Source: a virus. Taken from it: a DNA stretch of 34,908 nucleotides. The stretch covers positions 1 to 34,908 of the IMG/VR virus record IMGVR_UViG_3300045581_000270, one strand, 5' to 3'. Below the pieces are notes generated by a model. The model searched no databases. It worked only from the letters and a program-made list of their open reading frames with translations, and was not told the origin of the DNA. Every line of letters starts with the position of its first letter. Within the stretch, counting starts at the first letter, position 1. Position numbers and translations under genes: made by a program. Of this stretch, positions 7,103 to 10,919 are shown one piece after another.

Positions 7103-7336
7103 TCACTCAACCACAACGCCCGCGGCAATTGCCGTGGCCAATGCCATCGCGTCTTCCAGGTAGCGAGCGAGGAACCACTTGCTTTCGTCGCTGCCGTTGC
7201 GGCTGCAAGTCAGATCCCACCAGTAGCTACACTCGTCACTCACACCATCCTCGTGTGGAATGATCTCGTAATGCCAACCGTCTGCTGACGCATTCAGCGA
7301 GCCGTCGGGGTCAATTGTCCAGTCGAGCCGCTGCAT
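7103..7336 (-). CDS. hypothetical protein, 77 aa, downstream of structured RNA
   Basis: The ATG at 7336 gives MQRLDWTIDPDGSLNASADG and a beta-rich start, then a helix (WFLARYLEDAMALATAIAAG). It resembles small phage proteins that pair one beta sheet with one helix; I cannot name the family. The start is about 14 bases after the U-tract of the terminator hairpin at 7355-7394, so expression may need readthrough of that terminator. GGAG abuts the ATG, which is unusually close. Confidence 0.55.
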   Translation of the reverse strand: MQRLDWTIDPDGSLNASADGWHYEIIPHEDGVSDECSYWWDLTCSRNGSDESKWFLARYLEDAMALATAIAAGVVVE

Positions 7337-7350
7337 CTCCGAACTCCATG

Positions 7351-7451
7351 AAAAAACCCGCTCGAAGTGTGATGCGACCACACCCCGGCGGGTTATGACA
7401 GGCTTTCGCCTGATAATTCTGCTTTTCGCTGGAGTGTCGCATACTCCGGCG
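7351..7451 (-). ncRNA. candidate structured RNA with kissing loops, own promoter and terminator
   Basis: The roughly 100-nt transcript would start near 7451. Hairpin 1 (7431-7447) has stem GGAGT/ACTCC, extendable past one A-C mismatch, and a 7-nt loop AUGCGAC. Hairpin 2 (7399-7412) is CAGGC-GAAA-GCCTG, a GNRA-capped stem. Hairpin 3 (7367-7383) has stem GTGTG/CACAC and a 7-nt loop GUCGCAU, the exact reverse complement of loop 1. It is nested in a terminator stem (AACCCGC 7388-7394 with GCGGGTT 7355-7361) followed by TTTTTT. It can be read as a free small RNA or as an attenuating leader of the 77-aa gene. I match it to no known class. Confidence 0.65.
7355..7394 (-). terminator. terminator forming 3' end of the structured RNA
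   Basis: A 7-bp outer stem AACCCGC/GCGGGTT encloses an inner 5-bp hairpin and is followed by a T6 tract (7351-7356, sharing two bases with the stem). It lies between the promoter at 7458 and the ATG at 7336. Confidence 0.72.
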
Positions 7452-7457
7452 AGGTTC

Positions 7458-7486
7458 ATCGTAGAGGGGTCATGTGCGGTTGTCAA
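7458..7486 (-). promoter_or_regulatory. sigma70-type promoter (TTGACA-17-TACGAT) of the structured RNA
   Basis: A perfect -35 TTGACA (7481-7486), a 17-bp spacer and -10 TACGAT (7458-7463). It begins three bases after the stop of the 68-aa gene and fires directly into hairpin 1. Confidence 0.75.
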
Positions 7487-10187: not shown

Positions 10188-10407
10188 CGGTGGCAGCCTC
10201 TGTTATTTGCACGCAGTGCAGCGTGATAGGGTGCACTTCGATACTGTGCATCCTGTCCGTGTCATGCTCAACACATTCCACGACAGCCACCACTGCAGTC
10301 CCTTCCAGCGTCGCTCTGATTCGATGCCCGATCGATGGTATTACCTGAAACGCAAGCGTCCACCTCACCGTCGGCTCGTGCCTGAACACCACCCCTGCAA
10401 ACACCAT
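10171..10407 (-). CDS. hypothetical protein, 78 aa, nested in CsrA-like ORF
   Basis: The ATG at 10407 (MVFAGVVFRHEPTVRWTLAF) has GGAGGGG six bases upstream. It lies well inside the CsrA-like ORF in another frame, with about 140 bases of overlap. The product is beta-rich (LEGTAVVAVVECVEHDTD). No family is recognised. Confidence 0.55.
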   Translation of the reverse strand: MVFAGVVFRHEPTVRWTLAFQVIPSIGHRIRATLEGTAVVAVVECVEHDTDRMHSIEVHPITLHCVQITEAATDVQNS

Positions 10408-10579
10408 CGCCATCCCCTCCAGCATGAAAGTTCTCAATCTCTGCCCGCCACACGGGAACACTCCGCGGGGCCTCGATATGGATCGCCGTATGACTGCCCC
10501 GCGTTTTGCCGAGTGTCACGGTAATATTCGGGCCGATGCGGATTGCCTGGCCCTCTTTTCGCTTAATCGTTAATGCCAT
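10268..10579 (-). CDS. csrA: CsrA-like RNA-binding protein with unusual C-terminal extension
   Basis: Residues 1-52 match the carbon storage regulator fold. MALTIKRKEGQAIRIGPNIT corresponds to strands 1-2, VTLGKTRGSHTAIHIEAP to strands 3-4, and VPVWRAEIENF to strand 5 plus the start of the helix, keeping the key Arg (R45, E. coli R44). CsrA dimers bind GGA in hairpin loops of mRNA leaders and block or stabilise translation. Usual length is about 60-70 aa, but this frame runs to 103 with a Gly/Asp/Cys-rich tail that overlaps the next gene, as if a stop codon had been lost. GGAGG precedes the ATG at 10579. Confidence 0.75.
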   Translation of the reverse strand: MALTIKRKEGQAIRIGPNITVTLGKTRGSHTAIHIEAPRSVPVWRAEIENFHAGGDGDGVCRGGVQARADGEVDACVSGNTIDRASNQSDAGRDCSGGCRGMC

Positions 10580-10919
10580 TTGGCCTCCATCCCTCCTGAA
10601 AAATGCGTTGTATCTGCGGCCAATGATGCGGGTACCACACGTAGACTTCCGCGCGGCTCGCGTGCTGACATTGCAACGCCGCGAGCCATTCAACCTGATC
10701 ATCAGACGGTTTGTTTCGGCCGACTTTTAGTTCTGCGAAAATGATCCTGCCAGCCTTCGCCGCCACGACGTCGGGAAAGCCCTTGTGCCCCTGGATTGCT
10801 GTCCGATATCCACGGGCTGTTTTGGCGGGCCTGAAGTGGCAGACACGCCAACCGTAGAGCATGGCCAGTTGCACGATCTGGCTTGTGAATTCGCCTTCGC
10901 TCGGGCCGCTATTCACCAT
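10563..10919 (-). CDS. VRR-NUC domain nuclease, 118 aa
   Basis: A PD-(D/E)xK-fold nuclease of the VRR-NUC type. GHKGFPDVVAAK (44-55) supplies the PD pair (D50) and IIFAELKVGRNKPSDDQ (59-75) the ExK pair (E63, K65) plus the trailing Gln. The N-terminal SEGEFTSQIVQLAMLYGW is typical. Phage members are thought to cut branched DNA, and FAN1 relatives act in repair. Here it sits beside a CsrA-like gene and near a possible annealing protein. Confidence 0.85.
   Translation of the reverse strand: MVNSGPSEGEFTSQIVQLAMLYGWRVCHFRPAKTARGYRTAIQGHKGFPDVVAAKAGRIIFAELKVGRNKPSDDQVEWLAALQCQHASRAEVYVWYPHHWPQIQRIFQEGWRPNGIND

Follow-up and report, generated by a model that had tools for sequence, protein, structure and literature searches.

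Covarying kissing loops in a predicted family of small RNAs from uncultured phages

Comparison of seven related copies shows that two apical loops of a small predicted phage RNA really pair with each other, their letters changing together between viruses. On these comparative grounds the RNA is a small new family of phage RNA outside Rfam, with a kissing pair backed by covariation. We found it in an IMG/VR phage record of 34,908 bases, the whole stretch of DNA that was analysed and that we call the window. This phage, whose host we suspect from its gene content to be a planctomycete, encodes a lambda-type portal, a gpA-type terminase (gpA nuclease, PF20454), a GP7-type major capsid protein and a DnaB-like helicase. 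A CsrA-like protein is also encoded in the window (10268-10582, minus strand), with homologues in sister phages. The RNA element is flanked by two small minus-strand genes and lies just upstream of a DUF3102 gene. It consists of three hairpins behind a sigma70-type promoter (7486-7351, minus strand), the third hairpin being the terminator, and the predicted RNA is ~105 nt long. Its features, and the gene that follows it, are as follows.

7458-7486, minus strand: predicted promoter, read from the sequence, with -35 TTGACA (7486-7481), a 17-nt spacer and -10 TACGAT (7463-7458)
~7451, minus strand: expected RNA start, predicted from the promoter at 7458-7486
7427-7451, minus strand: hairpin 1 from folding, CGCC GGAGU [AUGCGAC] ACUCC AGCG, three stem pairs with two-sided changes
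7436-7442, minus strand: kissing loop 1, AUGCGAC, on the GGAGU/ACUCC stem, pairing with loop 3, 7/7 pairs covarying
7413-7426, minus strand: single-stranded linker AAAAGCAGAAUUAU, from the alignments
7399-7412, minus strand: middle hairpin from folding, CAGGC-GAAA-GCCUG, its stem kept in every copy
7355-7394, minus strand: terminator hairpin from folding, AACCCGCCGGGGUGUG [GUCGCAU] CACACUUCG-A-GCGGGUU, kept in all copies
7372-7378, minus strand: kissing loop 3, GUCGCAU, on the GUGUG/CACAC stem, exact complement of loop 1 and covarying with it
7351-7356, minus strand: U tract of the intrinsic terminator, from the sequence, six U in 7/7 copies
7103-7336, minus strand: gene for a 77-aa protein, beginning 14 nt past the U tract, too close for a separate promoter

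The original prediction, made from the window alone, had placed the promoter, the loops, the GAAA-capped hairpin and the six U exactly where we find them on the minus strand, and it had rightly read AUGCGAC (7442-7436) and GUCGCAU (7378-7372) as exact complements. The 5-bp stems that it gave to both hairpins are too short: hairpin 1 continues beyond its 5-bp inner stem, past a C.A mismatch, into an outer CGC/GCG helix, and the terminator stem comprises 16 bp with one bulged A. Its view that the 7-mer fills each loop entirely holds in part, since the minimum free energy (MFE) folds of close homologues (class A, below) leave loop 3 open at exactly 7 nt, whereas the fold of the window copy alone closes it further by a G-U and a U-A pair and leaves a 3-nt loop. 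The MFE of the window element lies 5.3 standard deviations below that of dinucleotide shuffles.

Starting from relatives of the DUF3102 protein, we reached three phages in which the element lies upstream of the gene for this protein, and a terminator pattern led to a fourth. A covariance model built from these five class A copies was run over 21 phage records; it recovered all five (E-values of 4e-27 to 2e-31 for class A) as well as two distant copies, one in phage G011 and a second one in phage G005, that had been left out of model building (class B, 7e-11 and 3e-9). The element is thus present in seven copies in six phage records. Besides the window copy, these comprise four close copies of class A and the two distant ones of class B, which five related IMG/VR phages carry between them. 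In all seven the promoter is followed by hairpin 1, the linker, hairpin 2 and the terminator, in that order. TTGACA is identical in 7/7 copies with a promoter spacing of 16-17 nt, and the -10 hexamers read TACGAT, TACCCT (three copies), TAACCT, TACTCT or TAATCT. This conservation of promoter and terminator in every copy supports the predicted structured RNA with expression signals of its own. The linker keeps CAGA in both classes, and AUCAGA in six of the seven aligned copies, while the loop of the middle hairpin varies among GAAA, UAAC, UCUU and UUCAU. The class B copies carry wholly different loops, and each folds independently into the same hairpins; their loops hold 8 complementary nt, GAAGAGAG/CUCUCUUC, seven of which fill loop 3. 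Phage G005 thus contains both classes, with loops that are orthogonal to each other. When the six phages were scanned for TTGAC(A/T)-type promoters with a T5 run behind them, the seven elements came up together with two other places.

The family was confined to this phage group in the collections searched. Blastn against phage and plasmid collections gave no homologue outside the group; a pattern scan of genome contigs gave seven loci, none of which matched model R1 at E 0.01, and three of the whole genomes behind these loci were empty for model R2. A loose viral pattern returned eleven further contigs whose resemblance was limited to the terminator or was unrelated. Two candidate members, L010 and L006, were rejected for weak model scores and for lacking complementary loops. 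Two further places are recorded here as observations in their own right. Positions 40692-40870 (plus strand) of the G003 record hold a promoter-led, terminator-ended stretch in which a hairpin loop matches a downstream single strand over 8 nt, possibly by chance. At L079:3666-3776 (minus strand), a promoter, a short hairpin and a terminator precede a gene, and 9 nt just upstream of the loop region are complementary to it; the model score of this place is weak (E 0.017) and its homology doubtful.

Five loop pairs occur among the copies: AUGCGAC/GUCGCAU, AUGCGAG/CUCGCAU, GUAGCAG/CUGCUAC, GUAGCGA/UCGCUAC and AAGAGAG/CUCUCUU. Within class A, double changes affect six of the seven pairs of the kissing helix with zero broken cells. 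When the class B row is included, double changes extend to 7/7 pairs and all 35 cells are paired, so the covariation proposed in the original prediction as the check on the pair is found, two-sided at every position. None of 500 shuffles reached the covariation score of the kissing helix, and the signal was gone, with control scores far lower, when the partner was slid by 1-3 columns. The test used loop and flanking stem letters only, with the class B row put in register by hand, and its rows are few and related: seven copies and five loop types represent few independent events, one type being common to G001 and G005 and another to the class B copies of G005 and G011. The stem of hairpin 1 covaries too, with two-sided changes at three pairs.

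The covarying homologues carry more weight than the single sequence. The original prediction had put the chance of such a match at about 1 in 16,000, a figure that ignores the number of hairpin pairs available. With a descriptor of two hairpins, the second followed by T5, and 7 complementary loop nt, two loci were obtained in 4.5 Mb of Markov sequence, or ~0.03 expected in the window; natural sequence taken from other contigs, 0.43 Mb in all, contained one. A null of this size makes the window sequence by itself only suggestive, and it is the covariation among homologues that settles the matter.

In the four close copies of class A, 12 of the 14 loop columns are variable compared with 7 of 92 elsewhere. 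Strong diversifying selection on the loops was considered and rejected, as loop change is both faster and slower than neutral: G001 and G003 differ at six of the seven loop pairs at 34% fourfold divergence in a neighbouring gene, whereas G000 and G001 differ at one of seven although fourfold sites in the neighbouring gene differ at 60%. Part of what separates G001 from G003 can moreover be explained by a shift of one base, given the shared GCGAG, for which loop 3 compensates with a shift of its own. Loop divergence is therefore not clock-like, and given this mixed comparison with fourfold sites we claim conserved complementarity with changing letters, not diversifying selection.

The same co-changing 7-mers could in principle act at the DNA level, as inverted operator half-sites for a phage-specific repressor, with the hairpins being incidental; they are indeed inverted copies of one 7-mer just past a promoter. 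We consider this most improbable, given that every copy has both 7-mers placed exactly in its apical loops, that the stem of hairpin 1 covaries as well and does so with G-U pairs, and that the 7-mers are not consistently present at other promoters. Complementary sites in phage transcripts fare no better. Loop 7-mers occur in their own genomes at about chance frequency or below, except in G001 (11 against 4.7 expected), where the excess is not at sites conserved with other loop types. No complementary site recurred at matched sites in the phage genomes, which suggests that the loops serve each other and not a phage mRNA. Sites complementary to the linker were likewise near chance in the phage genomes and gave no orthologous target. 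CsrB-type RNAs carry repeated GGA motifs in hairpin loops; titration of CsrA in that manner, considered on account of the CsrA-like protein of the phage, was dismissed, as none of the loops of the seven aligned copies contains GGA.

The explanation that we prefer, and that we judge moderately probable, is a discrete trans-acting RNA that is clamped by an intramolecular kiss and presents the CAGA linker, while read-through feeds the gene or tRNA behind. A non-coding RNA of ~105 nt would start at a sigma70-type promoter of its own and end at the intrinsic terminator. We infer a discrete RNA from the conservation of promoter and terminator around it in spite of changing downstream genes. In this RNA the 5′ hairpin would pair its apical loop over 7 nt with that of the terminator hairpin, as the covariation indicates, most likely within one molecule, given that the linker seems capable of spanning the stacked helices: by an estimate made by hand, a stacked rod of 9 + 7 + 16 bp measures ~90 Å, a distance that ~15 + 3 single-stranded nt of linker plus a hairpin base can just bridge. 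Such a kiss would tie the 5′ end to the terminator stem in a closed ring, exposing the linker with its conserved CAGA followed by the small hairpin. Since CAGA is kept unpaired in both classes, the RNA may act in trans via this linker, as a compact sRNA or a protein-binding RNA. Read-through of the terminator would probably provide a low level of transcript for the promoterless gene or tRNA that follows. In this arrangement the loops need only match each other, which fits their changing together while linker and terminator stay fixed.

What follows the terminator differs among the copies: the 77-aa gene in four, tRNA-Tyr in two and neither in one, the class B copy of G005. In all four phages that have the 77-aa gene it stands directly behind the class A element, including the homologues in G002, G003 and G005, each of which is single-copy, and it is absent from G001 and G011. 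Its product is predicted to adopt a beta4-alpha fold (pLDDT 85.5); it had no family match in Pfam, PHROGs or PADLOC and its structure no significant PDB match, the best matches in a viral library being uncharacterised phage proteins, none of them confident. In two distantly related phages, tRNA-Tyr (GTA) lies directly behind the kissing RNA (L002:7275-7360 and L039:1629-1714), beginning about 16-35 nt past the U tract with no space for a promoter of its own.

This organization invites a reading of the element as a leader or attenuator, in which the promoter drives the 77-aa gene or tRNA-Tyr and loop-loop pairing tunes polymerase read-through. We rate it as a tentative possibility that is on balance unlikely. 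In its favour, nothing behind the terminator has space for its own promoter, the next gene starting 14 nt (77-aa gene) or about 16-35 nt (tRNA-Tyr) on, and the constant position of the 77-aa gene behind class A elements is compatible with it. Furthermore, loops 1 and 3 are paired in the MFE of three of six copies when the nascent RNA is cut before the 3′ arm of the terminator. Nonetheless, full-length folds reveal no conserved stem that would exclude the terminator, the kiss takes up only the apical loop, and loop covariation by itself needs no switch. The kiss, which might open or lock the terminator as predicted, is topologically compatible with a closed terminator stem. The further suggestion, a switch dedicated to the 77-aa gene, loses weight since tRNA-Tyr takes the place of this gene behind two of the seven copies and neither stands behind one; the downstream genes are in fact unrelated.

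The order of promoter, pseudoknotted RNA, Rho-independent terminator and protein gene is also that of type III toxin-antitoxin systems such as ToxI and CptI (PMC5086642), and the element with its small protein gene could be a unit of this kind. This is very unlikely. The element differs from these systems in having no tandem repeats (one unit per copy) and no recognisable toxin, and the gene is sometimes missing, three of the seven copies being without it. Searches of Pfam, PHROGs, PADLOC and PDB with the 77-aa protein revealed no ToxN-, CptN- or TenpN-type toxin behind the terminator and no confident structural match.

As in the original prediction, which could name no known RNA class, Rfam 15 gave no match at the element and none in the window; the best sub-threshold match at the element scored 13.6 bits against a cut-off of 46.6, and only tRNA was matched in the homologous loci. 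In the kiss between RNA I and RNA II of ColE1, seven-nt loops are paired over their full length, and the 7-nt loops of the element are likewise paired full length. The ColE1 loops, however, belong to separate RNAs transcribed from the two strands of one locus and match automatically for that reason, whereas both loops of the element lie in one same-strand transcript and match by selection. The pRNA, for its part, is about 110-170 nt long. Like the pRNA of phi29, the element is a phage RNA with two complementary, covarying loops. The phi29 RNA pairs 3-4 nt between molecules and has a three-way junction and a phi29-type motor, whereas the element pairs 7 nt, carries its loops on hairpin 1 and the terminator, and lies in a phage in which no phi29-type motor was seen among the genes matched. 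The pRNA model of Rfam gave no match in the window or in the homologous loci. Judged by sequence, the element is thus like pRNA or the ColE1 kiss by design and none of them by membership.

These likenesses bear on whether the kiss joins molecules, for which the sequences give the same signal as for a kiss within one. Loop 1 could kiss loop 3 of the next molecule, head to tail, with the loop letters as an identity code. We hold this self-assembly to be clearly unlikely, and would put at a similarly low level the corresponding code, in which related phages, and two copies within one phage, carry mutually non-matching loops on the same body. In its favour, covarying loops on a conserved body are the pattern of pRNA, whose right- and left-hand loops change in complement while the rest is conserved in fold (PMC12670572), and GOLLD and ROOL, RNAs of unknown function from phages and prophages that are often near tRNAs, form multimers through kissing loops (PMC12286853). 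The two G005 copies with orthogonal loops and the two copies adjoining tRNA-Tyr are in keeping with it. Against self-assembly, the linker seems to have the length needed for a kiss within one molecule, and low concentration favours pairing of that kind. The terminase is a lambda gpA-type enzyme and not a phi29-type ATPase, and loop types largely track kinship. Unlike the ~105-nt element, GOLLD and ROOL are large RNAs that form cages, many GOLLD being longer than 800 nt, and their Rfam models had no match. Superinfection immunity via loop codes was set aside, a tyrosine integrase being found in 0/6 RNA-carrying records.

In three of the related loci, the kissing RNA unit is separated from the DUF3102 gene by a highly conserved stretch of ~430 nt (L002:7361-7790, L003:7530-8000 and L004:7537-8000) that looks non-coding and folds strongly, with 121 predicted pairs. 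Six of these pairs show double changes, among three sequences only, and Rfam gave no match to the stretch, which may be another structured RNA, larger than the first. In the window there is too little room for it. Right behind the class B element of G005, a GC-rich and probably non-coding stretch (L040:1612-1756) resembles it by eye.

The kissing RNA appears to be an undescribed family in uncultured phages. It is a compact RNA, and the letters of its loop pair have been replaced several times in nature with the pairing kept, which would make it a clean natural model for kissing loops and for the choice between pairing within and between RNAs. If its loops do serve as identity codes, it would provide, beside pRNA, a second phage case in which loop complementarity sets self-recognition.
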